This document shows, piece after piece, positions 21,952 through 36,021 of a stretch of 36,876 bases of DNA. A model generated the notes under the pieces. It did no database searches and was not told the DNA's origin. It saw only the letters and a program-made list of their open reading frames with translations. Position 1 is the first letter of the stretch; each line of letters starts with the position of its first letter. Source of the stretch: Fibrobacter sp. UWT2 (lineage in GTDB: Bacteria; Fibrobacterota; Fibrobacteria; Fibrobacterales; Fibrobacteraceae); NCBI RefSeq assembly GCF_900142545.1, contig NZ_FRBF01000024.1:1-36876 (forward strand), read 5' to 3'. Made by a program: the position numbers and the translations under genes.

Positions 21952-22407
21952 TTACGACACGAGCATCATCGAGAACACCATGACGAACAGCGCGACGGTT
22001 TCGCCGACGCCAAGCACCATCAGGTAGTTCACCAGGCCCTTGCCGGTTTCGCCGAGGGCGTTGCAGGCGTCCGCAGCGGACTTGCCCACGTACCAGGCAG
22101 AAGCCATCATGCCGATGCCACCGAAGATGCCCACACCCAGGTATGCAGCCCAGTTGGCCGGAGCCGTCTGGGACTTGTTCAGGATGTACATCATCAGCAA
22201 CATGCCGTAGATTGTCTGCGCAATCGGCGCGCCCACGAAGATGAGCAGCGTAAACAGCGCGTTCTTACCCTTGAGATACGCCTTCTTCCAGGCCCCGATG
22301 GCCGCCATGCCGGCAGTCCCGCAGCCCAGCGCAGAACCCACCGCGGCAAGGCCCAGGGCCGCCACCGCGCCGAGTTTCGCGAGCGTTAAAAGTTGAGCTT
22401 GATCCAT
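21952..22407 (-). CDS. atpK: V-type ATPase proteolipid subunit K (intact copy)
   Basis: A 151-residue proteolipid with four membrane helices in two hairpins, as in bacterial V/A-type rotary ATPases. The rotor ring carries H+ or Na+ past subunit I. The ion-binding glutamate lies in LGVGETVALFVMVF (about residue 136). The first hairpin has Q in the matching place (APIAQTIYG), as in 16-kDa K subunits with one carboxylate. A GAGGTAA site precedes the ATG. It lies 18 bp after a near-duplicate K gene. With I truncated and A, B and D absent here, this copy may have no partners unless they are encoded elsewhere. Confidence 0.92.
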   Translation of the reverse strand: MDQAQLLTLAKLGAVAALGLAAVGSALGCGTAGMAAIGAWKKAYLKGKNALFTLLIFVGAPIAQTIYGMLLMMYILNKSQTAPANWAAYLGVGIFGGIGMMASAWYVGKSAADACNALGETGKGLVNYLMVLGVGETVALFVMVFSMMLVS

Positions 22408-22425
22408 ACGTGTTACCTCGCTGGA

Positions 22426-22954
22426 TTAAAGCACCATCATGGAGAACACGAGAACGAACAGGGCCACGGTTTCCACGATACCGAGCACCATCAGGTAGTT
22501 CACCATGCCCTTGCCGGTTTCACCGAGAGCATCGCAAGCCACAGCCGCGGACTTGCCCTGGTACCAGGCAGAAGCCATCATGCCGAGACCGCCGAAGATA
22601 CCGGCGCCGAGGCAGCCGCCCCAGTTGGTAAAGCCGGATTCAGCAGCCTTGCTCAAGATGAAGTTCATCAAGAGCATGCCGTAAATCGTTTGGGAAATCG
22701 GGGCACCCACGAACACCAGGAGCGTGAAGAGAGCGCTCTTGCCCTGGGCATAAGCCTTCTTCCACATGGTGATGGCGGACATACCAGCCGTTCCGCAACC
22801 AAGGGCGGAGCCCATTGCCGCAATGCCAAGCGCAGCTGCAGCACCCCTATAATGACCGAACAACCTTTGGTTGTTCTCTCGCCAGCACGACTCGCTCCCG
22901 CTGAGTCGCTTTCTGGCTCACGGTAGCGAGAGTCACCATTGTATTCGGTTCCAT
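22426..22954 (-). pseudogene. atpK: Second V-type ATPase subunit K copy, broken by a repeat insertion
   Basis: The original start appears to be ATG 22954 (GAGG site upstream), reading MEPNTMVTLA. That matches the N-terminus of the intact copy (MDQAQLLTLA). The match resumes with GAAAALGIAAMGSALGCGTAGM at about 22845 and continues to the end, including the ion-binding glutamate in LGIVETVALFVLVF. Between them lies a palindromic insert. The region from start to stop is 529 bases, against 456 expected from the paralogue, a net gain of 73 bases. This shifts the frame and creates a TAG just before the resumed match. A TTG at 22863 could only restart without a properly spaced ribosome binding site. 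Confidence 0.82.
22858..22932. repeat. Nested palindromic insertion in the K copy
   Basis: GAACAACC-TTT-GGTTGTTC (22858-22876) adjoins a large hairpin: CTCTCGC (22876-22882) pairs with GCGAGAG (22926-22932), and inside it CGACTC (22888-22893) pairs with GAGTCG (22903-22908). Size and structure are those of a REP/MITE-like element. It fills the place of about two codons of the K gene. Confidence 0.75.
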
Positions 22955-22993
22955 TGTTTTTTCCTCATTAAGTAGCGGGAATTATCCCTTGGT

Positions 22994-23788
22994 TTAATTT
23001 TTCTGCTTGGCGAAGGGCGCGAACGCGAATCCGCTCCATTCCTGGCCAAGTCCATTTGAAAATTCGAGTGTGTTAAGACGTACGGCGTGGACGGCGACGC
23101 CCATGACCGCAAGCGCGATGTTCAGGCCGTGCACAAAGAGCAGCAGGAATGCCGCACCGGCGATACCGACAGCGGAGCCGAACAGCGGCGAGAGCATGTC
23201 GTTGAACGCCTCGGCGATGGCCGCACCGGACATGCCCACAGCGAACAGACGGATGTAACTGATCACGTCGGTAAAGCTATTCACCACGTCGAGCACGAGC
23301 ATCGGGATGCTGATGAAGTCCTGCTTGAGCCTCTTGGGCGGCACGGTAAAGAGCACCAGGAGAACGGCTTCCACGATGAACATCGGGATGACGAACTTCG
23401 GCATGTCGATACCGAGCACCATCTGGCACGCAAGGAAGAACATCACCCAGCAGCCGATAAGCCAGCCCACCTGCGCCATGAACGTGGAGTCCTTGCGCTT
23501 GATGCGCACGCACACGTTCCACACGTGAGCGATACTCAAGTGGACCACGGCGATGCAGAAGCAGAACAGCTGGATATGCTGCATCTGGGAGGCACCTGCA
23601 GCCTTCGGCACGAAGCTTTCGGGCAAGATCGTGATCGACTGGGCGAAGGCCTTGTAGGCTTCGAACTTCGCAGGGTCTGTCGGGGCACTAGTGCGGATCC
23701 AGAGCATCGCGTTCTTCAGCGGTTCAGGCAACCAGCCGTAATTGGTGATGTCCAGGTAATACGTCTTCTTTATTTGGGCGTTCCCCAC
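22994..23788 (-). pseudogene. atpI: V-type ATPase subunit I, C-terminal part only
   Basis: 264 codons match the membrane half of subunit I, the stator that works with the K ring. DVISYIRLFAVGMSGAAIAEAFNDM contains the essential arginine, and HAVRLNTLEFSNG near the end is also conserved. Family members are about 600-650 residues, so the N-terminal cytoplasmic half and first helices are missing. Similarity stops at about 23775, exactly where a repeat element begins. Upstream in the same frame is a TAG within the repeat. The first candidate start is a GTG inside the repeat at 23788 with no ribosome binding site. No ATPase genes A, B or D are found beyond. Confidence 0.85.
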
Positions 23789-23910
23789 ACTGTCGTGTGG
23801 GTCGGGCTATATTCTGGGGGCAATCGGCTTCGCTTACGCTTGCCGCTCACCTCCCAGAACCAAGCCCCGCTGCGCGGGTCTTGTCCCCAAGGGGTCACTA
23901 TCCCTAACGC
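23776..23910. mobile_element. MITE/REP-like element truncating atpI
   Basis: Begins GGGCGTT and ends CTAACGC, so the ends GCGTT/AACGC are inverted repeats about 133 bp apart. Internal hairpins are CCCACAC-TGTC-GTGTGGG (23784-23801), CCCGC-TGC-GCGGG and CCCC-AA-GGGG. Its last 61 bases (23850-23910) recur without change at 30716-30776. It contains no gene and is probably a non-autonomous element. Confidence 0.7.
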
Positions 23911-24027: not shown

Positions 24028-27000
24028 TTGAAACAGTTACATTCTTATATTTTTGCCATTCTTTGTCTATTAGGGCTAGATAGCGCTTTCGCCCTTGATT
24101 TTCCGTATTCTGAATGGAGTCTTGCAAATTACGAAGGGGCGTATGCGACCTTTAACGAGGGTTTTGTTTCTGTTGCCGATGGCGGCTCTGATTACTGGCA
24201 TGTTCAGCTGACCCGCAGCAATATCGAATTACAGGCTGGCAAGACATACGAAGTCAAGTTTTACCTACAGGGTGTTAGTGCCCGCCGCTATGTAGAAGTT
24301 CGCATCGGGCGTGACGGCTTCCCTTATGATGCTTTCGCCGAATTCGGTGAAGTTGCAGCGACCGTAAACGGACGAACTGTAACAAAGACTTTTACGATGC
24401 AGTCGGGCAATGTAAGCAACGCCCGATTTGAATTCAATCTTGGTAAAAATTCCGGGACGGTTTATCTTTCCGATGTCAGCCTGAATTGCCTTGACTGCGG
24501 TTCAAGCCAAAATATAGGCGGAAATAATTCTTATGCAACATCGGCAGGCGATTGGGGTTATGTGGTTGTTGCCGACATGGTCGATTTCCGTGACAATTCC
24601 ATGTCCTTGGGCGATGTATTCGGTCAAAATCTTGAACTAGGGGTGGATTCCAAGATTTACGGTAATGTTGATGCTTCGAACCATTGTTTCTTGCGTGAAC
24701 GGGCGAATATCAGCGGTGATTTGCGTTATACTAGCCAATGCGAGGAACAGAACGGAGTTGTCGCCAAAACAAAGAGCGAAGCGACGCTTTCAAAACCTGT
24801 TGTCGGCATTCCGAACATCGTTGCAGGGGTGACTCCAGTCTCTGTTGGACTTGACCAAAACGTTACAGTATCGCCGAATAATTACGGTGCGTTCTATGCC
24901 AATGCAAGATCCAAGGTCCATTTGTCATCGGGTTCTTACACTTTCCAGAACATCTTTACGGAACCTGACGCCGAGTTTGCATTTGACTTGACTTCCGGCC
25001 CGATTACAATAAATGTCTTGGGAAATGTCCGCTTTGGCGACCGAAACACGTTCTCCATTACGGGCGGAAACCCCAGCGAAATTTTGTGGAATGTCGCCGG
25101 TGAGAATGTCGATATGGGAACGGACGGTTTGTATTTTGGAAAGTTTGTCGCTCCGTCCGCATTCGTTCGTATTCCGTCGCGTTCGCATCTTGTCGGTGCC
25201 GTGTATGCCAACAAATTCCAGATAGAACCGCAATCGACCGTTTCGCAGGAACCCCGTGCGACCGAAATCTCGCACAGCGAGGAACATTTCGGACCTTTCT
25301 TTGAACCTGGAGTATTCCGCTATGTTTCACAGTTGCCGCTTTCCGCGTCTGCTATCGAAATGTTTGTCTATGCGGATAACGCCCAATTCAAGGTGAACGG
25401 CGAAACATCGACAATAGTCGAATTGCCGTCTTCTAATGTAACCGCAAACATATCGCTTATCAGGAATATGATTTCGGGCTTCCCCGCCGAAGCGTTCAGT
25501 AGCAGTTATGTATTCAGCTTTACCAAGAGTGCAAACTACCGTATCTACTGGAATCCGCAGACCCAGTGCAAGCAGGGTTGCGACGGCACAACTGCAGCGA
25601 CTGCCGTTGGCGACTTTGTGACCGTTCTCGAAACGGCCAAGACGACAGGTCGCGAAATCAACATGGCGGGTGGCGTTTGGAATGTGACCGAAAACTTTAC
25701 AGACGGAGTAGTTCCTTGGAAAGTCGGTTTCGAACTGGTCGGATACAAGGGTGACATTTGGGATTTGAATTCTGAAAAAGAGCTCCCGCTTTTGAATATG
25801 GGCGGAAACACTCATGTGGAAATCGAAGGCCGTTCTCCACGCAGCATTGTCGGTCTTCGCCTTGAAAATGGATTTAATGCCGAAAACGGTGGAACAATCC
25901 ATTCCGACAACCAGAAACTGCTTTTGAAAAACATCGTTATCGCAAAGTCTGAATCAAACAAAAACGGCGGAGCCTTGGCAACAAGTGATTCCTTGTATCT
26001 CGAAACAGTTCACTTTACACAGAATACATCGAAAGGAAATGGCGGTGCAATTTCTGCTCAAGGTGAAATCAGTATGCTTAATGTAATCTATTTGAGCAAT
26101 ACGACTGCTCTTAACGGTGGAGCCGTAAATCTTTTAGGTGGCAACACCTACATCGGCAATGCAATTTTCTATGACAACCATGCTGCGGACAATGGCGGTG
26201 CAATCAACAATGATGGCGCAACCCTAAACCTTTGGAATGCAACATTCTTCGCAAACGGTGCTACGACAAAAAATGGAGCAATATCAGGCAAGGCTAAAGG
26301 CTCTATAGGCAACAGCATTTTCTGGAAGAATACAACGGCAACATGCACAGGAGAGTGTGCAGAAGAAGTTGTCGTCGGCTATAGCGCAACAAATTCATCT
26401 TTCTCGAAAAACTACATAGGAACAAATATTTACATCGGCGACCCCAAACTCGCAAACGAAAATAATCCAGCCGGCGAAAATGAATATATGAATTACGATG
26501 CAGGAATCAATCTTGATCAAAAGTCAAATCTATTGAAAGCTGGCGTAAAGAACAATTTCGCTCCACAATACGACATATTGGACATGGAGCGTGAAGAAAA
26601 CGCTATCGCTTTGGGCCCTTACGCAAACGCAATGCCGTCAAAGAACGCGACATTTGGTGTATTGGACGAAGACGGCAATGTGGTATCAAAGAAACCAACA
26701 GTTCCTTTGATAAATGCCATATTAGGGCAAAGCCATAGGGAGTATCTTTTGCATTCACCTTATGCTAGAGTATGGAAAGCAACAATTGACAGGAATAAGA
26801 AAACAAAAAAATTAAAAAAAGCACATGTTAAATTATGGGTAAAAGACAAGGATGGAAACAAACGAACCAAAGACCCCGTTGTCGAATTTGACGTATTCCG
26901 CAATGGTGATGAAAACGGTCAATGCGTTTTCCAGACCATGACAAAAAATGAAGGCAAGCCAATATTATTTTCCAAGCGTTTGAAGGATGCCGGCGAGTAT

Positions 27001-27069
27001 GACGAGGCTATTGTAATTTACATGGGCGCAGTTACAGATTACTTCTATTACGAAGCAAAGGAGAAGTAG
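24028..27069 (+). CDS. Secreted CBM / beta-helix surface protein
   Basis: 1013 residues starting at a TTG with AGAGGA upstream. A signal peptide (1-22) is followed by a beta-sandwich resembling carbohydrate-binding module families 4/9 (about 24-155): WHVQLTRSNIELQAGKTYEVKFYLQG and FEFNLGKNSGTVYLSDV. Next is a region of about 250 residues with repeated GNV/KVHL turns resembling polymer-forming or bactofilin-like anchors. Residues about 600-770 form a right-handed beta-helix with the Chlamydia-type GGAI/L repeat (NKNGGALA, GNGGAISA, LNGGAVNL, DNGGAINN). The C-terminal ~100 residues are lysine-rich beta sequence. No autotransporter barrel or catalytic motif is visible. I infer a carbohydrate-binding adhesin. 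First gene of an operon with the next two. Confidence 0.75.
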   Translation: MKQLHSYIFAILCLLGLDSAFALDFPYSEWSLANYEGAYATFNEGFVSVADGGSDYWHVQLTRSNIELQAGKTYEVKFYLQGVSARRYVEVRIGRDGFPYDAFAEFGEVAATVNGRTVTKTFTMQSGNVSNARFEFNLGKNSGTVYLSDVSLNCLDCGSSQNIGGNNSYATSAGDWGYVVVADMVDFRDNSMSLGDVFGQNLELGVDSKIYGNVDASNHCFLRERANISGDLRYTSQCEEQNGVVAKTKSEATLSKPVVGIPNIVAGVTPVSVGLDQNVTVSPNNYGAFYANARSKVHLSSGSYTFQNIFTEPDAEFAFDLTSGPITINVLGNVRFGDRNTFSITGGNPSEILWNVAGENVDMGTDGLYFGKFVAPSAFVRIPSRSHLVGAVYANKFQIEPQSTVSQEPRATEISHSEEHFGPFFEPGVFRYVSQLPLSASAIEMFVYADNAQFKVNGETSTIVELPSSNVTANISLIRNMISGFPAEAFSSSYVFSFTKSANYRIYWNPQTQCKQGCDGTTAATAVGDFVTVLETAKTTGREINMAGGVWNVTENFTDGVVPWKVGFELVGYKGDIWDLNSEKELPLLNMGGNTHVEIEGRSPRSIVGLRLENGFNAENGGTIHSDNQKLLLKNIVIAKSESNKNGGALATSDSLYLETVHFTQNTSKGNGGAISAQGEISMLNVIYLSNTTALNGGAVNLLGGNTYIGNAIFYDNHAADNGGAINNDGATLNLWNATFFANGATTKNGAISGKAKGSIGNSIFWKNTTATCTGECAEEVVVGYSATNSSFSKNYIGTNIYIGDPKLANENNPAGENEYMNYDAGINLDQKSNLLKAGVKNNFAPQYDILDMEREENAIALGPYANAMPSKNATFGVLDEDGNVVSKKPTVPLINAILGQSHREYLLHSPYARVWKATIDRNKKTKKLKKAHVKLWVKDKDGNKRTKDPVVEFDVFRNGDENGQCVFQTMTKNEGKPILFSKRLKDAGEYDEAIVIYMGAVTDYFYYEAKEK

Positions 27070-27075
27070 ATTATT

Positions 27076-29070
27076 ATGATGATGAATGTCTTGAAAGTTT
27101 TTATTACATCACTCTGCGCTTTTATTTTACAAGCTTGCGACGATGACGGTTCTGCAAGCGATAACGTAAATCCAACCCCTCGATGCGAAGAGAACGATCC
27201 AAACTGTGAAATTCACGGCACAAGAAGTACTCCAATAATACACGATTATTCATTTGAAGAATATGCTGATGGACAGGTTGTTGAATTTCATTGGACTCAA
27301 ACTTTAGACTGGTTTCTTCCGCATGAAGAGCATAAATGGGGATTTGACATGGACCCATATGCGTTGTTTAGTGAGGACGCTGTTTTTCATGGACGAGATG
27401 TGTACATGTCTGTTAGTGACGGAGAATTCGCTCAAATAAACATCCTTGTAAACTGTGACGCTAAAGATCGTTTTTCTTTACGCAAAATAGACAAAGACAA
27501 CAGCACTGTTCTTACGGGAAAAGAAGCTTGCTCGGAAGGTAAAGATGGGATGATAAAAAAATCTTTATCTGCAGGAGATTACGCCATTTACTATGGTGAT
27601 GAGGAACAAAAAAGGTATCTACATATTAAATCCTATCGTCCAGATTTGAACAGAGAAATATTTTTCGTAAAATTCGGCAATGAAAAAGATCCAGACTGTA
27701 TAGGAGGTGATGGCAAGACTGGATGCTACACAAAAGATATTGTCGAAAAATATTTTGACAAGGTTATGGCACAGGTTGTTGTAGGCGGCGATTTCAAATC
27801 CGTTGAGCCAAGCGAAGTTGGATTTGATGAAGGTCCGCTCCTTGTAGATTTAACGAATAGCTTATCTGAAGTATATAGCTTTATTACGACAAGCGGTTAT
27901 GCAGCGCCGATTGTTGCAAAAATAAAAACAGATGTTCTTCTAAATTCAAATTTCGGAATCAAGGATAAAAAGGAAAAGTTAACAACGGAAACACAAAAAA
28001 TAATCGATAAAGAATGTTCTATAATGGCGGACAAAGAGCAAAAAGAAAACCTAAAAAATTCAATTTCGAACAAAAAAAGTGATTGCGAACGCATTGAGCG
28101 TAGCACAAACTGTCAATTATCAGACGAAGGAGATTCATTTACAATTTCATGTCCACAAGATGTCTCGTCAGAAGATTTTCAAGAATATAAATCTAAATGT
28201 GGAGATTGGCTGTCATATAAAAAATATTATGACGATGAAGAAAAAAGGTGTAACAATGATGTAAGCGACTACAACTCTGCAAAAAATGATTACGATTCCG
28301 CTTTGGAAAAAGCAAAGGAAAAGCATCTTGTTTTTGGCATTAATGAAATGCGCGTAAATTGGAACTTTGATGGTAATGGAGGAAATAGTGTTATTCTTAA
28401 AAATTACAGTTCATTTGTCACTTCATGTAAATATGCCGATGATTGTTCATCATCCTCAAACGAAATGACAATGAAAATGAAAAATTCCTGTAGCGGAGGG
28501 GAAACTTCCATTCGATTAAAGGTTATTGACGTTCTGACGGACGATTCCTTTAAGGCGTCTATTTCAGGACACAAAAAAGGGTGCAAATATTCTATTTATA
28601 AAGATGTATATCCGCATGTCCCCGGTCTCGAAAGAGCCGCACAACTTACATTGCCAAGTACGAAATCTGAAAGCGACAAAACAGTCATCGGAGGCTTTGT
28701 GTGGGGGTGCCGTTTAACAGGAGAAGCCTCAATGAATACTATTGTTCATGAAATTGGACATTCCTTCGGTCTTACTGATTTATACATATGGCCAGATGAT
28801 CCAACAAATCCGAGAAATTATGAAGGCTATTGTGAAGAAATTGATGAATCAGGAATATGCCTCACCAAATATGCTGATTTTGCTTTTGATGAAGCTAATT
28901 TAATGAATTATAGTTCACCGAACGGCATGAGATTACGATATCGTCCTCTAGCTGTTGCTAAAACAATTGACGGGGAACTAATTGATAAAAAAGGGTCATC
29001 AGGTTTCGAAACAGAGAAACAATGGGATTGCATCCGTTCTAGTGTTGATTGTTTCAAAGAAAAGAATTAG
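27076..29070 (+). CDS. Metzincin-type zinc metallopeptidase lipoprotein
   Basis: 664 residues, 6 bp after the previous gene. The start is one of three successive ATGs. The N-terminus ends in lipobox LQAC followed by DDDG, so it should be lipid-anchored and exported. The catalytic motif HEIGHSFGLTD (from residue 558) is the HExxHxxGxxD of metzincins, and NLMNYSS about 50 residues later supplies the Met-turn. The N-terminal 500 residues are cysteine-rich with a Lys/Glu-rich helical stretch (about 300-440) and match no family I know. The coding sequence is clearly more AT-rich than housekeeping genes in the window, which suggests transfer. A role in processing surface proteins or host/plant protein is inference. 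Confidence 0.8.
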   Translation: MMMNVLKVFITSLCAFILQACDDDGSASDNVNPTPRCEENDPNCEIHGTRSTPIIHDYSFEEYADGQVVEFHWTQTLDWFLPHEEHKWGFDMDPYALFSEDAVFHGRDVYMSVSDGEFAQINILVNCDAKDRFSLRKIDKDNSTVLTGKEACSEGKDGMIKKSLSAGDYAIYYGDEEQKRYLHIKSYRPDLNREIFFVKFGNEKDPDCIGGDGKTGCYTKDIVEKYFDKVMAQVVVGGDFKSVEPSEVGFDEGPLLVDLTNSLSEVYSFITTSGYAAPIVAKIKTDVLLNSNFGIKDKKEKLTTETQKIIDKECSIMADKEQKENLKNSISNKKSDCERIERSTNCQLSDEGDSFTISCPQDVSSEDFQEYKSKCGDWLSYKKYYDDEEKRCNNDVSDYNSAKNDYDSALEKAKEKHLVFGINEMRVNWNFDGNGGNSVILKNYSSFVTSCKYADDCSSSSNEMTMKMKNSCSGGETSIRLKVIDVLTDDSFKASISGHKKGCKYSIYKDVYPHVPGLERAAQLTLPSTKSESDKTVIGGFVWGCRLTGEASMNTIVHEIGHSFGLTDLYIWPDDPTNPRNYEGYCEEIDESGICLTKYADFAFDEANLMNYSSPNGMRLRYRPLAVAKTIDGELIDKKGSSGFETEKQWDCIRSSVDCFKEKN

Positions 29071-29077
29071 GTACAAC

Positions 29078-30493
29078 ATGAAATTATACAAATTATGCGT
29101 AATCGCAATTATCTTTGCAGAAACCCTTGTGTTCGCGAAGGAATCTCTATATGAAGTAGATGGTGCAAAAGTCGGAAACAAAACAAATGGGCCCAAAGCA
29201 TTGATTCACGTATTTAGTGAAAAAACACCTAGCCGCTCTATTTCGGATCGGTCAAAATCTGATATATATGCCGAACAAGACACTTTCTTCATATCCCCAA
29301 AAGCTTCTGAATTATGGCTCGAAATGGAGAAAAATTCCAATTACACCATTTGCTTAGAAAACGAAGAAAATGGAATATGGAAAGGAAATGATTTTCCGTA
29401 CGAAAAAGATTGTTCGTGTATTAAATTGAATTCCGGAAATTATGTGAAGAATGGAAAGATTCAGCATATAACCCAGATGGGCAATGTACAAACATTCAAT
29501 TTACTTGTAGGTATGAAATACATCGACCTTTCAACACAAGAACATTTGTTAGGATTCAATAGCAGCAAGGATACCTATTTAACGGGGAAACATTTAAGCA
29601 TTTCGTATATGGATTCTGCAAGATATGAGAAATTATATGAAGTCCTACTAGTTGACAAATATAAAATTACAGAATGTGAATTCGTGCATGCTTTATGGGA
29701 TTCCATTCCACCTTACACACAGGAAAACAATTATGAAAACATTAATTTCTGGATAGAAAAAAAGAAAAATATGACCAAAAATGGGCTGTGCGACACTCAC
29801 GACTCTGCAGCAACGCGAATTTATTTATACCAAGCTTTAATTTACGCAAACATTCGCAGTCTGCGCGATGGCTTTAAGCCTGTATATTCGTTCGAGAAAT
29901 CAAAAAATTTCAGCACTACATTCAAAGAGTACAATGATGGTAGTTTCAATATTAACGGAGCAAGTTTTTTCCGAAATCGTTCAGACGAAGAAAACTTTAT
30001 TCATGTGAAGATTGATAAGAAAGCCAACGGATATCGATTGCCATACTACAATGAATGGGTTGCTCTTGCAAGAGGAGGTGAGGGCCATAAAAATTATTTT
30101 AATATTTGGGGCGGAATAAATGATTCAATAAAAGCCTCTCAATATGCCTGGTTTGGTCAAACGGATTCAGAGGATCCTTATTTAAAAATGAGTGAAAAAG
30201 ATCCCTTTGAAAGATCATGGCTCAAAATGTCTTGTGGAGAATGGAAACAGAAATCCCGACCTGTGGGGATGTTGAAGCCGAATGCTTACGGTCTTTATGA
30301 TATGTTTGGCCTTGTTTGTGAAAATGTATTAATGTCAGAAAAAAGTTTATTTAGTGTTGAGACATATTCTTGCAAAGGTGGTTTTTTAACAACATCTCTT
30401 AAAGATTTAAATTTTGGAAACCATTGCGACAATAGCCGCGGTTATTTCTATACCACATTCCAAGGACTACGGCTTGTTCGTCAAATTAAGTAG
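29078..30493 (+). CDS. Secreted protein with a divergent FGE-like domain
   Basis: 471 residues; the start at 29078 gives a signal peptide (MKLYKLCVIAIIFAETLVFA), whereas the longer frame overlaps the metallopeptidase gene. After a beta-rich N-terminal part (to about 165), an FGE/SUMF1-like fold is visible: VDKYKITECEFVHALW, GYRLPYYNEWVALARGG, SRPVGMLKPNAYGLYDMFG and a final GLRLVR. The usual NVWEW core reads LVCENV, so the domain is divergent and probably not a formylglycine synthase. AT-rich like its neighbour. Third gene of the operon, which ends at a very strong terminator. Confidence 0.75.
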   Translation: MKLYKLCVIAIIFAETLVFAKESLYEVDGAKVGNKTNGPKALIHVFSEKTPSRSISDRSKSDIYAEQDTFFISPKASELWLEMEKNSNYTICLENEENGIWKGNDFPYEKDCSCIKLNSGNYVKNGKIQHITQMGNVQTFNLLVGMKYIDLSTQEHLLGFNSSKDTYLTGKHLSISYMDSARYEKLYEVLLVDKYKITECEFVHALWDSIPPYTQENNYENINFWIEKKKNMTKNGLCDTHDSAATRIYLYQALIYANIRSLRDGFKPVYSFEKSKNFSTTFKEYNDGSFNINGASFFRNRSDEENFIHVKIDKKANGYRLPYYNEWVALARGGEGHKNYFNIWGGINDSIKASQYAWFGQTDSEDPYLKMSEKDPFERSWLKMSCGEWKQKSRPVGMLKPNAYGLYDMFGLVCENVLMSEKSLFSVETYSCKGGFLTTSLKDLNFGNHCDNSRGYFYTTFQGLRLVRQIK

Positions 30494-30538
30494 TTCTAGA
30501 AAGGTTACAACAAGTCAATATAGTTTTCCCTAAATTTC

Positions 30539-30580
30539 AAAAGTTCCGCAGTTTTGGCAAAACTGCGGAACTTTTGTTTT
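30539..30580 (+). terminator. Terminator of the surface operon
   Basis: A perfect 17-bp inverted repeat spans 30539-30555 and 30559-30575 (core AGTTCCGCAG / CTGCGGAACT) with a 3-base loop. It ends TTTTGTTTTC. Symmetrical A and T runs allow termination in both directions. Confidence 0.88.
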
Positions 30581-30590
30581 CTAACAAACC

Positions 30591-30715
30591 CTACCTATTC
30601 CCTTTGGCTCTTTTATGCGACTTGCAGAGCATTTCGCAGTTGGCACGGTCGGTTGCTCCGCCCATGCTCCAGGCAGTCACGTGATCGGCATCCATTTCAG
30701 CGAGTTTCCAGATCG
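30591..30715 (-). pseudogene. Fragment of an HNH endonuclease gene
   Basis: About 41 codons ending at TAG 30593-30591 encode AEMDADHVTAWSMGGATD followed by RANCEMLCKSHKRAKGNR. This is the DH...N...H part of an HNH nuclease fold (catalytic DH, conserved Asn, then CKSHKRxKGN). The matching N-terminal part is missing: upstream in this frame the sequence is the 61-base repeat and GC-rich hairpins. I read it as a nuclease gene truncated by the repeat. Confidence 0.7.
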
Positions 30716-30839
30716 CCTCCCAGAACCAAGCCCCGCTGCGCGGGTCTTGTCCCCAAGGGGTCACTATCCCTAACGCTGCGGGGGGTTCCCCCCGCTCCCC
30801 CTCGCAACACAGGGCACGGCCTACTCGGCCTCGCCCTGT
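30716..30839. repeat. Second copy of the 61-base repeat plus GC-rich hairpins
   Basis: 30716-30776 equals 23850-23910 base for base. It is followed by GCGGGGGG-TT-CCCCCCGC (30778-30795) and by ACAGGGC (30809-30815) pairing with GCCCTGT (30833-30839). The left part of the element seen at 23776 is missing here, so this copy is truncated or mosaic. Confidence 0.8.
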
Positions 30840-30844
30840 AAAAC

Positions 30845-30878
30845 AAAAACTCCTGCCTGATTTTTTATCAGGCAGGAG
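30845..30878 (-). terminator. Terminator of the DUF6261-like gene
   Basis: CTCCTGCCTGAT (30850-30861) pairs perfectly with ATCAGGCAGGAG (30867-30878) around TTTTT. On the minus strand it is followed by TTTTTGTTT. Confidence 0.88.
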
Positions 30879-30907
30879 CAATGTTATTCAAGTTATGTCG
30901 TTTACAG

Positions 30908-31918: not shown

Positions 31919-33862
31919 CTACACGCCGTTCCCACTGAAGCCGAGAGAATCTTCCAGCCAGGTGTCTGTCCGCTGCACCGAAAGGCGACTTTTCATCGCT
32001 TTTCTGCCCGCCGAATACTGCGCCCACCTCACGGCGAGCGCAGAGAGCCGTCCGAGATGCCGCATAAGGGTCCACAGCGGTCCCGGCAGGTTCCGGCGCA
32101 GCACATCATCCTCGAAACTTGCGTAGTGGCTTGCGCTGCCGGGGTCGCCCTGCCTTGCGGCGCGCCCGAACAACTGCCGGTCGATTCTGGACGACGGGTT
32201 ACATTCCGTGGCAATCACGTGCAGTCCACCAAGTTTTTTTACCTTGTCCGGTATCTTGATATCCGTGCCACGCCCGGCCATGTTTGTCGCGACCGTTATC
32301 GCGCCCAGGCGTCCGGCACGCTCGATAATCGCGGCCTCGTCGTCGCTACGCACGGCATTTATCACGCGGCATTCAAGCCCGAGAGCCGTAATCATTTCGG
32401 CCAGCGTTTCGCTTTCGTCAATATCCTTCGTCCCAATAAGCACGGGGCGGCCCGTCGCATGAACATTCATCACTTCACGGACTATGGCGACACGCTTGCT
32501 TTCCTTTGTAGAGAAAATCCTGAGCATGGATATCTTGCGAAGACAGCGGCGATGGTTCGGGACGCAGAGGACCGGGGACCCGTAAATAGTCCAGAATTCA
32601 CCGAGGGCCTCCTTACCGGTCCCCGTCATGCCCGAGAAATTCTTATACAGCCTGAAGAATCGCTGGAAACTCATTCGGGCCTCAGTTTCCTTGAGCCCCG
32701 AAAGTTCCAGCCCTTCCTTCAGTTCTATCATCTGGTGAAGCCCGCCGTTCCAGGAACGCATGGGCATCTTGCGGCCCGTGGACTCGTCCACGATTACGAC
32801 CTTGCCCTCTTCCACCACATACTGGCGTCCGGCAATAAACAGATACCGCGCCGTCAGGGCCTGCCGAATCAGGTCCTTCAGGAACGCCGCCTTTGAAAAG
32901 CCGCTCGACGCGGGGCCTTCGAGCCATTCGTCCATGTCCGTCAAGAAATGGATTGTGCGCAACTTGCCATCGACAAGGAAATCGATTCCTTCCTGCAACT
33001 TTCCCGAAAGTTCGTAGGCCTGCCTACAGCTTTCGTTAAAGCCCTCGTTCTTGTTCTCCCTAGAAATAATCAGCGGCGTCACGGCCTCGTCAATCAATAC
33101 ATTGTCCGCCTCATCGACAATGGCGGTGCATAGCCCCCGCTGCACCACTCCCCTGCCGAACTCCCCGCCCTGCAGGCTGAAGCGGTCCAGGAGCCGCTTC
33201 GAAAAGTTCTGCATCTTCCCCATGGCAATGCGGTCCCGCAAGAAGTCGGCCAGCACTTCCTTCGCCGTAGAGTAGGTAATCGCGGCGGCATAGCCCGCCC
33301 TCCGTTCTTCCGGCTTCATCGCTCCGGTCACGGCTCCCACAGTAAGGCCACAATAGTCAAACAGCGGCTTCATTATCTGCGCGTCGCGGCTTGCCAGGTA
33401 GTCATTGGCGGTTATCACATGGCACGGCATACCCGACAAGCCGCGCACCGCTGCACACATGGCCGCCGTAATCGTCTTGCCCTCGCCGGTGGACATCTCG
33501 GCGATATAGCCACGATAAAGGCAAAGGGCTCCCGCAATCTGCTCCACATAGGGCCTATACCCCATCGTCCGGAAAGCGGCCTCCTGCATCAACGCGAATG
33601 CCTCGCAAAGGGTCGAGTCATTGACAGGACGCTTGAGCAGGGCGGCAAGCCCTTCTATTCGCCCTTTCAGCTCGGCGTCAGACTTTTCCGAAAGACTGCG
33701 GCCAAGGCTGTCTATTTTCCGTGCGGTCCGCAGAATACGCCTGATAACGGAACGACGACTCTTGAAACGGCCGACCAGCCTGAAAACAAAGGCGTCGATA
33801 CCCACGGGAATCTTCTCCACGCGTTTCAACGAAGTAAGCCTGTAGTCGCCAGTCAAGTCCAT
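31919..33862 (-). CDS. Shortened SecA-like export ATPase
   Basis: 647 residues from ATG 33862, which overlaps the stop of the upstream gene (TGATG). The SecA motor motifs are all present: MSTGEGKT (123-130), VDEADNVLIDEAVTPLIIS (249-267), NFSGMTGTG (408-416), TNMAGRGTDIKI (526-537) and RIDRQLFGRAARQGDPGS (559-576). Between them a preprotein-crosslinking-like domain is recognisable (GRQYVVEEGKVVIVDESTGR). Housekeeping SecA has 830-900 residues; this one ends about 70 residues after the last motor motif, lacking most of the helical wing/scaffold and the zinc-binding tail. It is thus a paralogue, not the general SecA. Coupling to the M50-HlyD fusion and the RTX-type gene implies a dedicated secretion role. 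Confidence 0.88.
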   Translation of the reverse strand: MDLTGDYRLTSLKRVEKIPVGIDAFVFRLVGRFKSRRSVIRRILRTARKIDSLGRSLSEKSDAELKGRIEGLAALLKRPVNDSTLCEAFALMQEAAFRTMGYRPYVEQIAGALCLYRGYIAEMSTGEGKTITAAMCAAVRGLSGMPCHVITANDYLASRDAQIMKPLFDYCGLTVGAVTGAMKPEERRAGYAAAITYSTAKEVLADFLRDRIAMGKMQNFSKRLLDRFSLQGGEFGRGVVQRGLCTAIVDEADNVLIDEAVTPLIISRENKNEGFNESCRQAYELSGKLQEGIDFLVDGKLRTIHFLTDMDEWLEGPASSGFSKAAFLKDLIRQALTARYLFIAGRQYVVEEGKVVIVDESTGRKMPMRSWNGGLHQMIELKEGLELSGLKETEARMSFQRFFRLYKNFSGMTGTGKEALGEFWTIYGSPVLCVPNHRRCLRKISMLRIFSTKESKRVAIVREVMNVHATGRPVLIGTKDIDESETLAEMITALGLECRVINAVRSDDEAAIIERAGRLGAITVATNMAGRGTDIKIPDKVKKLGGLHVIATECNPSSRIDRQLFGRAARQGDPGSASHYASFEDDVLRRNLPGPLWTLMRHLGRLSALAVRWAQYSAGRKAMKSRLSVQRTDTWLEDSLGFSGNGV

Positions 33863-36021
33863 CACATCTTGTAGTATTTTTGCAACGCCTGCCGTACCTT
33901 GCGTATCCCCTGGACGGCCAAGGGAGCATAGCCAAGCTGAATACGAATCTTGCCCGTCCTTCCGTGCAGACGGCGAACATCCATCGAATCGGGCATCTCG
34001 GCCCTTACAAGGTAAACGGGTTCCGCCGTCTGTTCCGAATACCCGTCGCTCTTCGTCTCGACTTCCCCACCCCCGAGCCAACCCAGCGCATTCGAGGGCA
34101 AGCGGTCTTGCGCACTGGGGATAGCCATGGCAGAGACAACCTTCAATTCCTTAAATACATCGCCGTGCAAGCGCACCGACGCGCGAACGGGCTTGTCCGT
34201 AAACAACCTTGCGCCATCTTCCTGGTTTACCACTGCCAAAAAATCGAACGCGGTCGTATCCAGCAAGATGCCCAGCGAATCGCCCTTGCCTACCCAGCGC
34301 CCCTGATAGTCCTCGATGCCGGGCGCACTCCAGATTCCGTCCATCCCCGCGACAAGTGCAAGTTCGCTCTCGCTCTTTTCGAGTTCTTCGAGTTCCTGCT
34401 TCAATACCGAAAGCCGCTTTTCGAGCGGATGCATGTCTTCGGGGGCCTCGTTCAGTGCACGGTAATACATCTGCCGCGCTTCCTGTATTTCGGAGCGCTT
34501 GGCCTCGGCGGCATACTTGATTTCCAGATTCTCCAGGAGCACTAGCGTGTCGCCCTTGTTGACTGCGCTAAAGCTCCCTCGATAGAGCTTGGCCGCAAAG
34601 CCGCCCTCGTTTGCTATGGTGTTCTCGTAATGGCGGGCTTCCAGTACGCCCGGGGCCGTAAACGTATCGGGAACGGGCAAGTAGAACAGCGCCGCAAACA
34701 GCAGGGCAAAAAAGGCGACCGTAAGGGCGGAGGCCCGGTTGCGGACTTGCGAAAGCCCCGGCCCCCAGAAAACATACCTGAAAAACTTGCCTACCGGAAT
34801 AACCACCATGGTAAGGCAAAGCAGCACTCCCATGACAAACGAGAGAATCAGGTAGTGGGCCGATATGGCGACAATGAACCCCGCAAAAAGGAAGAACCTG
34901 TAGACAGCGCTGGATATCCCGTAAACCGTGTATATCAGCTTCTCGCTCGCCCTGAAGGCGACCGGTTCCGCGTCGCGCTTACGGAAGGCATATCGTTCCA
35001 GAAGGTACTGCAGGTGCCGTACGGAATGCTGTTGCAGGTTCGGCATGTCCAGCAGGTCGGTCAATATGTAGTAGCCGTCAAAGCGCATGAGCGGGTTCAC
35101 GTTGAACAGCACCGTAGAGACCGAGCAGATGATGAACACGTTGTAGCAGAGCGCGCGGGCCGTGCCGCCGCCCAGGTTCGCCCAGAGTATGAGCGCCACC
35201 GAGGCTATAAAGAACTCGAAGAGCATTCCCGCGGCCCCCACAAAGGCGCGGTGCCGCTTCTTGCGGAAAGACCAGCTCGCCGTGGCATCCACATACGGCA
35301 GCGGCGCAAGGAGCATGAACATCACGCCCAGCGTATGGACCTCGCCGCCATATTTCTTGACGACGCTCGCATGCCCGAACTCGTGGAACAGCTTCACGAA
35401 CACGGTACACACGTACACCCACCCAATGTTCGACGGAGCCAGGAACCCCGCGCTCTGGTCCTTGAGTGCGTCGAAGTTCTCGACACCGTACTTGACGGCG
35501 ACAATGACCGTCGCAAGCCACACCAGCATCATCGGCGTACTGAGCAGAATGCGGATCAGCCACCGTAAACGGTTCAGGAGCGGGTCGGGGTCGAATACCG
35601 GTATTCGCAGGAAAAAGATGTTCAGCAGGGTGGACTTGACCTTCTTGCGGGTCTTTTTCTTGTCGCGGTCGAAAAGTTTCGTGCCATCTTCCACGCCGTC
35701 ATAAAGCAGCATATTGGCCTGGTAAAGCTGCGCAAGCATCTCGATGACTTCGCCCTGGCCGGGGATGTCGCCCTCGCCGCTTTCCAGCATGCTGTTCCAA
35801 ATCTCGCCCACGGTCCTACTCACGGAAAGTCGAGAAACAAAGGAATAGGCCCCCTGCGGCAGGCGGAAATACTGGTTCGTGAACGGCTCGTAGAGCACAT
35901 ACCACAACACGCCCCGATATATCTGGCGGTGAATGCGGACGCTCGAACGGAGAGCTATACGGCTCCCCGCGAGACGGTACCACGACTCGTGGAAAATCTT
36001 GCGCTGACGGTCCTGTATCAC
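33862..36021 (-). CDS. PqqD-like / M50 zinc protease / HlyD-type adaptor fusion
   Basis: 719 residues starting at a GTG four bases after the previous stop. Residues ~35-110 resemble a PqqD/RRE peptide-binding domain (YVLYEPFTNQYFRLPQGAYS ... VGEIWNSML). Several membrane helices follow, with HEFGH at 213-217 and NPLMRFDG at 309-316, the metal-binding pair of site-2-type M50 proteases. Residues ~440-450 form a last helix. After it comes a periplasmic part with HlyD/biotinyl-lipoyl halves (GGFAAKLYRGSFSAVNKGDTL; GMDGIWSAPGIEDYQGRWVGKGD) around a coiled-coil hairpin (505-555). Comparable M50-HlyD fusions are known next to large secreted proteins and peptides. I infer that it recognises, cleaves or threads the RTX-type protein encoded upstream. 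Confidence 0.82.
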   Translation of the reverse strand: MIQDRQRKIFHESWYRLAGSRIALRSSVRIHRQIYRGVLWYVLYEPFTNQYFRLPQGAYSFVSRLSVSRTVGEIWNSMLESGEGDIPGQGEVIEMLAQLYQANMLLYDGVEDGTKLFDRDKKKTRKKVKSTLLNIFFLRIPVFDPDPLLNRLRWLIRILLSTPMMLVWLATVIVAVKYGVENFDALKDQSAGFLAPSNIGWVYVCTVFVKLFHEFGHASVVKKYGGEVHTLGVMFMLLAPLPYVDATASWSFRKKRHRAFVGAAGMLFEFFIASVALILWANLGGGTARALCYNVFIICSVSTVLFNVNPLMRFDGYYILTDLLDMPNLQQHSVRHLQYLLERYAFRKRDAEPVAFRASEKLIYTVYGISSAVYRFFLFAGFIVAISAHYLILSFVMGVLLCLTMVVIPVGKFFRYVFWGPGLSQVRNRASALTVAFFALLFAALFYLPVPDTFTAPGVLEARHYENTIANEGGFAAKLYRGSFSAVNKGDTLVLLENLEIKYAAEAKRSEIQEARQMYYRALNEAPEDMHPLEKRLSVLKQELEELEKSESELALVAGMDGIWSAPGIEDYQGRWVGKGDSLGILLDTTAFDFLAVVNQEDGARLFTDKPVRASVRLHGDVFKELKVVSAMAIPSAQDRLPSNALGWLGGGEVETKSDGYSEQTAEPVYLVRAEMPDSMDVRRLHGRTGKIRIQLGYAPLAVQGIRKVRQALQKYYKM

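Follow-up and report, generated by a model that had tools for sequence, protein, structure and literature searches.

Flagellins are surface loci that combine a conserved part with an extremely diverse region. In Fibrobacter, whose members are major cellulose degraders of the rumen, attachment of strains to fibre, mutual discrimination and phage resistance are, to our knowledge, poorly known. Polymorphic toxin systems (CDI, Rhs and others), as described in PMC3482391, have a constant N-terminal carrier, an exchanged 3' cassette, displaced modules and variable content at conserved sites. The same features mark a three-gene locus at positions 24028-30493 of a contig from Fibrobacter sp. UWT2 (NZ_FRBF01000024.1), whose whole analysed stretch of 36,876 nucleotides is called the window below. 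Three co-directional open reading frames (ORFs) lie on its plus strand where a preliminary description of the DNA had placed them, separated by 6 and 7 bases after the stop codons. Gene 1 (24028-27069, 1013 residues, TTG start) encodes a putative stalk with a variable tip, ending in a C-terminal domain (CTD) of no recognised family; gene 2 (27076-29070, 664 residues) a predicted lipoprotein metallopeptidase; and gene 3 (29078-30493, 471 residues) a predicted secreted protein with the formylglycine-generating enzyme (FGE)/C-type-lectin fold. Comparison with related loci reveals a mosaic that is not visible from the window alone: the carrier is kept and the 3' cassette has been repeatedly exchanged. 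We tentatively read the locus as a polymorphic surface recognition complex.

Constant carrier and exchanged cassette

In four locus pairs with shared flanks, residues 1-540 of gene 1 are 76-96% identical, protein 2 is 17-28% identical and protein 3 is 23-51% identical. For the window and locus L115, DNA identity is 94-96% in both flanks and 91% over the initial 1.9 kb of gene 1. At the protein level, identity drops from near residue 540 onwards; the DNA match stops at about residue 623 (25898, the approximate left end of the exchanged segment); beyond this breakpoint to the end of gene 3, amino acid identity is 31% for the CTD, 22% for gene 2 and 24% for gene 3. Similar pairs sharing flanking genes on both sides are L028/L032, L031/L098 and L025/L097, the last with L124, of the same layout, substituted in the cassette comparison. 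Exchange of genes 2 and 3 is seen between the window and L023, which agree in gene 1 and in the signal/linker of gene 2 as far as codon 44 (27208, again approximate) and then diverge abruptly.

Among 17 loci, pairwise distances of the CTD correlate with those of gene 2 (rho 0.86) and gene 3 (rho 0.87), as do those of gene 2 with gene 3 (rho 0.82; 0 of 2000 permutations in each case). Distances of the gene 1 base (residues 181-415) do not follow the CTD, gene 2 or gene 3 (rho 0.01, 0.11 and 0.07; p 0.39, 0.19 and 0.27). Maximum-likelihood trees of the carrier (residues 30-540) and the cassette (genes 2 and 3) conflict: six approximately unbiased (AU) tests, three of carrier pairs or trios imposed on the cassette tree and three of cassette classes imposed on the carrier tree, all end in rejection, with p from 1.1e-5 to 1.5e-69. 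GC content is lower in genes 2 and 3 than in the first 1.5 kb of gene 1 at 17 of 17 loci, and the CTD end is lower at 16 of 17.

Loci found under two handles entered the distance analysis once each (L094=L119, L095=L120, L097=L122, L024=L123, L029=L128, L030=L116, L032=L117, L033=L127), and several source genomes of L001-L113 and L129-L147 are incomplete. The 17-locus set omits L118 (a contig end inside gene 1, the CTD split between frames); L033, L099, L100 and L125, in which contig ends truncate gene 1 or gene 3; L101/L126, with a truncated gene 1; in L031, the second peptidase-FGE module; and L097/L122, in which gene 1 is disrupted close to its start and whose layout L124 represents. Window gene 3 was used in distances and trees as its TTG ORF, which has 32 extra N-terminal residues; its start is most likely ATG 29078, giving 471 residues, rather than TTG 28982.

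The three proteins

Both Pfam and fold comparison support the earlier view of gene 1 as a carbohydrate-binding beta-helix protein. Behind a signal peptide assigned by eye, CBM_4_9 matches above its Pfam cut-off (E 2.1e-11; 44.8 bits against 25.9), a POMP repeat lies above its NCBIfam cut-off, DUF7305 falls slightly under its cut-off and bactofilin far under. In an AlphaFold model from 12 aligned sequences (mean pLDDT 73.8), residues 22-158 take the CBM4 fold (VIA-align against 2y64, Z 13.7; CBM4 structures in Foldseek, E 3.8e-8), so that sequence and fold both place the protein in CBM family 4. Residues 171-402 form an ice-binding-fold solenoid (Z 19.2 against the ice-binding protein 8x1l), and residues 505-879 a right-handed beta-helix, matched best by Rhombotarget A (9cdv; Z 29.4, 322 residues aligned, root-mean-square deviation [rmsd] 4.0 A). 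The CTD makes up residues 880-1013 (26665-27066). None of the best 50 VIA-align rows extends past residue 879, the CTD family profile finds nothing better than E 0.34 among PDB sequences, and Pfam gives nothing better than E 0.013 for 17 CTD members. We do not put the CTD forward as a new fold. Gene 1 has two NCBIfam matches up to E 1, and neither is TIGR04183, which we take to be the Por-secretion C-terminal domain of type IX secretion cargo. GlyGly-CTERM with a C-terminal hydrophobic helix is presumably the mark of a rhombosortase substrate, and the gene 1 C-terminus, TDYFYYEAKEK, shows by eye no hydrophobic stretch.

Gene 2 begins with a lipobox (...ILQAC, by eye) and carries the zinc motif HEIGHSFGLTD (28747-28779), of the pattern HExxHxxGLxD. 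A lipobox was recognised by eye in 20 of 21 distinct full-length peptidases, L098 being the exception. Ten residues (W429, H558, E559, H562, D568, N608, M610, Q649, C652 and C659) are invariant in 18 of 18 sequences, and the same ten plus others in 12 of 12 sequences of another alignment. Family assignments stay below curated limits: Reprolysin_3 scores 19.7 bits against a Pfam cut-off of 22.4, and the NCBIfam M6 domain 22.9 against 110.8, which does not make gene 2 a member of M6. Its model (mean pLDDT 66.2, moderate confidence) has an Ig-like sandwich at about residues 76-190, a helical and very variable stretch at about 263-413, parts of which fall below pLDDT 50, and a zinc domain at the C-terminus. 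Foldseek finds nothing that reaches E 0.001 and names no zinc peptidase in the best 50 rows, and every VIA-align row has Z below 8. The weak rank of zincins in these searches is not evidence of their absence, and no whole-protein fold is claimed from this model. The preliminary description had matched some 500 residues before the motif to nothing familiar; no PDB fold indeed stands out, and structure prediction partly resolves the region into the sandwich and the helical stretch.

Gene 3 had been called a secreted FGE-like protein, and the FGE-sulfatase domain PF03781 is present well above its Pfam cut-off (E 7.5e-10; 39.3 bits against 23.3). By eye, a cysteine preceding KGG is invariant in 16 sequences, and no cysteine after KGG is conserved in them. 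The FGE catalytic cysteine pair presumably follows the KGGS motif, as in human FGE; formylglycine generation by gene 3 is therefore unlikely, since that conserved cysteine after KGG is missing. The best PDB matches of the family profile are 5aoh and TvpA (2y3c). Likeness to TvpA made gene 3 a candidate target of a diversity-generating retroelement, which is ruled out for the window genome (G000), where no reverse transcriptase was found: a search with RVT_1 at E 1e-5 gave none in G000 or in G025. RVT_1 matches occur in three of eight genomes searched, on contigs other than those of the studied loci.

Distribution and genomic setting

The order of gene 1, HExxH peptidase and FGE-like gene is kept in 17 of 17 CTD-bearing gene 1 copies, found in 15 of 80 Fibrobacter genomes. 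The suggestion that the three genes form a working set, and should then co-occur elsewhere in the genus, is supported by this conserved order. Gene 1 has matches in 25 of 80 genomes at E 1e-10 and in 15 of 80 at E below 1e-180; in the others of the 25 only the CTD or the middle domain is matched. Gene 1 pieces at G102:C81, G102:C16 and G026:C131 stand outside the count of downstream genes. In the four most diverged loci, L094-L097, gene 3 was detected by BLAST at 22-28% identity, and Pfam, run on L119, L115 and L121, confirmed the FGE domain in L119 (= L094; E 8.4e-8). A search with gene 2 hit 11 of 100 genomes, every one of them within the genus, and none of the 39 outside it, where gene 2 was the only query. 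Two gene 1 patterns, run against the GTDB contig collection, returned 15 loci, and a scan with gene 2 returned no relative. Twelve of the 15 are titled Fibrobacter, Fibrobacteraceae or uncultured Fibrobacter, among them L121 of F. intestinalis ATCC 43854, and three carry Bacteroidales, Bacteroidetes or archaeon titles. Two of these three look mis-binned: L115, because both its flanks match the window at 94-96% in DNA, and L124, because its gene layout is that of the Fibrobacter contig L122.

The CTD is also found apart from gene 1. Its profile detects 32 copies, spread over 23 of 80 genomes. Gene 1 accounts for 17 of these copies; among the 15 others, 6 carry a fused FGE domain and 4 further ones belong to gene clusters that include FGE genes, with no peptidase gene near these fusions and clusters in the stretches fetched. 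FGE genes in turn accompany the full-length peptidase genes seen, lying downstream of 21 of 21 distinct ones. Long FGE frames persist where the peptidase is a fragment (L026, L027 and the upstream module of L118) or was not found (L106 and L107, the latter frame shortened but kept); the FGE orphan of L109 is itself only a fragment. Additional peptidase-FGE or FGE genes are present in L031, L098 and L119. Tandem clusters of FGE-fold genes, many with signal-peptide-like starts, were seen at L104, L108, L111, L112 and L147.

Further genes adjoin some cassettes. A BD-FAE-like esterase with a signal-peptide-like start is the fourth gene in three of six class II cassettes (L119:14984-16012, L120:14063-15100 and L124:8720-9757; Pfam on L119), and no esterase adjoins gene 3 among the class I loci listed. 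At one genomic place a second lipoprotein-like peptidase, with HExxHxxG(L/V)xH, lies 3' of gene 3 (L028:11729-12964, L032:4929-6131 and L033:5175-6416; Pfam on two of three). A Fib_succ_major-type gene lies 87-98 bases 3' of the FGE gene in L024:4870-5727, L026:3584-4510 and L107:2186-3058 (Pfam on L024).

The locus occupies a 6,866-bp unit between 61-bp direct repeats. The left copy (23850-23910) is the last 61 bases of a dispersed repeat of a 71-nt family (23775-23910, 94%), and the right copy (30716-30776) is identical to it at 61 of 61 positions; no third copy, allowing up to 3 mismatches, was found in the 3.49-Mb assembly G000. The close relative G005 has an empty site: one copy of the repeat, and no part of the operon, lies between flanks that match the window at 96.6% in DNA (left) and 98.9% (right, 0.4 kb to the contig end). 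An HNH endonuclease remnant within the unit (30594-30720, minus strand; PF01844, E 2.3e-5 in ORF 30594-30881) is missing from the empty site as well. This presence and absence reflects either loss of the unit in G005 or its gain in G000. In G025 the operon likewise lies downstream of a diverged repeat copy, and the 0.77 kb preceding the repeat in the window has no match in the G025 contig. G008 has different content at the repeat site, and further full or partial repeat copies occur in G025 and G008. At the right cassette end of L115 (6560-6711), a stretch resembling, by eye, a transposase (OrfA) remnant takes the place of the repeat.

The operon had also been described as lying under one promoter and terminator. 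The terminator stands, as a strong Rho-independent terminator-like hairpin at 30538-30576 on the plus strand (18 pairs, loop of 3, T-rich tail). The promoter is not confirmed: TTGACA-17 nt-TAC(G/C)TT is visible by eye upstream in the window and in L115, and a consensus scan found no plus-strand site between 23760 and 24028.

To the left of the unit, 21952-23788 (minus strand) holds a partial second copy of V-type ATPase genes, with a gene that we take to be subunit I-like, having no Pfam match; it is truncated to 264 residues, of which 256 align at 98.8% identity with the C-terminal portion of a longer frame in G000:C6. To the right, a SecA-like protein of 720 residues (31919-34081, minus strand) overlaps the end of a 719-residue ORF (33862-36021, minus strand) that has no Pfam match at E 0.001; the two are possibly an accessory secretion locus.

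Readings of the locus and comparison with known systems

How, then, is the locus to be read? The interpretation that we rank first, held at somewhat less than an even chance, is a polymorphic surface recognition complex with a constant stalk, an exchangeable head of CTD and FGE-fold protein, and its own maturation protease. It builds on the gene order, the fold matches of gene 1, the co-inheritance of CTD, gene 2 and gene 3, the cassette exchange behind a constant carrier, the empty site and the invariant zinc site; surface location, cleavage by gene 2 and selection for changed recognition we infer. Gene 1 would be the constant glycan-binding stalk (CBM4, ice-binding-fold solenoid and beta-helix), and its CTD would dock the FGE-fold protein of gene 3 as a catalytically dead, lectin-like head. 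The lipoprotein peptidase may be the dedicated processing enzyme of this head and tip set. Strains would keep the stalk, recombination would swap the 3' cassette (helix end, CTD, gene 2 and gene 3, or sometimes genes 2 and 3 only), and the stalk's recognition would change with it. The CTD-FGE fusions and clusters outside gene 1 point to contact between the two, and an adhesin with a processing protease, as first proposed from the DNA, is possible.

Several observations weigh against this interpretation. No cell anchor was identified for gene 1. Between the window and L023 the CTD is 91% identical, yet protein 2 is 41% and protein 3 55% identical; a strict lock between CTD and peptidase is thus not needed. 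A weak correlation with the cassette (rho 0.29-0.33, p 0.0075-0.011) is seen for the first part of the helix (residues 416-600), an intermediate value of the kind expected if breakpoints vary. Simple linkage between adjacent genes also yields correlated distances, so that the distance results speak for breakpoints and co-inheritance, not for contact. The groups in the AU tests were picked after the distances were seen, and the cassette tree carries a long-branch warning for L121. For five of the 15 CTD copies located elsewhere than in gene 1, the fetched stretch contains no FGE gene, and the esterase added in three of six class II cassettes is superfluous for a pure recognition head.

The main rival is polymorphic antagonism or kin recognition, in which the peptidase, with or without the gene 1 tip, is an effector, the FGE-fold protein protects its owner, and the stalk presents or delivers; we regard it as unlikely. 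A constant N-terminus, an exchanged 3' cassette and displaced modules are the anatomy of a polymorphic toxin locus, extra peptidase-FGE or FGE genes and FGE arrays exist, and zincin-type toxins are known in polymorphic toxins according to PMC3482391. FGE frames that outlast peptidase genes would also fit an effector with its protector; this asymmetry is only suggestive, and the L109 orphan is itself a fragment. CTD-FGE fusions, which support a head on a stalk, are odd for a toxin plus immunity. The alleles are moreover homologous, whereas classical systems have unrelated toxins, and the peptidase is a separate lipoprotein rather than the C-terminus of gene 1. As a known defence system the locus was tried and rejected, PADLOC giving no match up to E 1, and PADLOC and Pfam searches identified no toxin or immunity domain in the variable part. 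That the locus founds a new class of conflict or kin-recognition system in fibre degraders, with a cellulose-binding beta-helix stalk, a variable tip, a lipid-anchored metallopeptidase effector and a cognate FGE-fold protector kept alone or in arrays, is a shade more doubtful still.

A nutritional enzyme set is less probable again. Here a CBM-targeted scaffold would carry a glycoprotein-directed M66/M6-like peptidase and, in some class II loci, an esterase, acting on plant or host glycoconjugates with cassettes set by diet. The CBM4 fold of gene 1 is in keeping with this, as are the BD-FAE-type esterase in L119, which has homologues at the corresponding position in L120 and L124, weak Pfam M66 matches in 2 of 18 gene 2 members (best E 0.094), and the mucinase StcE (3ujz) among the matches of the gene 2 model. 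The StcE match spans several domains and 246 residues with rmsd 6.9, and its Z of 6.9 is below 8 and tied with an unrelated MacA-type row above it (Z 7.4). The esterase adjoins gene 3 in only half of the class II loci, and strong exchange with a conserved carrier and flanks is, in our judgement, atypical of housekeeping degradation. Least probable is that ordinary accessory surface genes lie in a low-GC recombination hotspot beside repeats and that the mosaic is neutral gene flow. Low GC favours it, as does a repeat-flanked site at which the content differs among G000, G005 and G008. Against this, the invariant zinc site and the gene order kept despite low identity show purifying selection on the set; exchange is seen at four genomic places, and among 134 loci the exact 61-base repeat was found only at the window site and in its near relatives.

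The recognition complex keeps its first rank, with antagonism as the main rival. The beta-helix of gene 1 is shared with Rhombotarget A, a surface protein of Acinetobacter baumannii (PMC12643943); gene 1 is 15% identical to it, adds the CBM4, ice-binding-fold and CTD parts, and lacks, by eye, a hydrophobic C-terminal tail. Like M6, M66 and M12-type zinc peptidases, gene 2 has HExxHxxGLxD and a later N-x-M resembling a Met-turn, but window gene 2 scores under curated cut-offs, and Ig-like and variable helical parts precede its zinc domain. The gene 3 profile matches the FGE-fold proteins TvpA (E 2.7e-13) and PorK/GldK (PorK, about 5e-5); unlike TvpA, gene 3 is no retroelement target in G000 or G025. 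A viral structure library gave nothing helpful in the best 50 rows, with low TM-scores. The literature matches listed contain no description of the triplet, nor of a lipoprotein peptidase and an FGE-fold partner varying together with the tip of a CBM/ice-binding-fold/beta-helix stalk. With the CTD and the peptidase architecture, the locus adds two elements that bear no family name in the libraries searched, and it is a concrete candidate for strain-specific recognition in Fibrobacter that occurs in the named strain F. intestinalis ATCC 43854. Exchange of a variable cassette behind a constant part is a known kind of organisation. Conserved and hypervariable parts are joined here as in flagellin-type loci, and two entire downstream genes vary with the tip. 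Compared with polymorphic toxin systems (PMC3482391), the locus has no recognised toxin or immunity domain, its cassettes are homologous families, and its peptidase is a separate lipoprotein.

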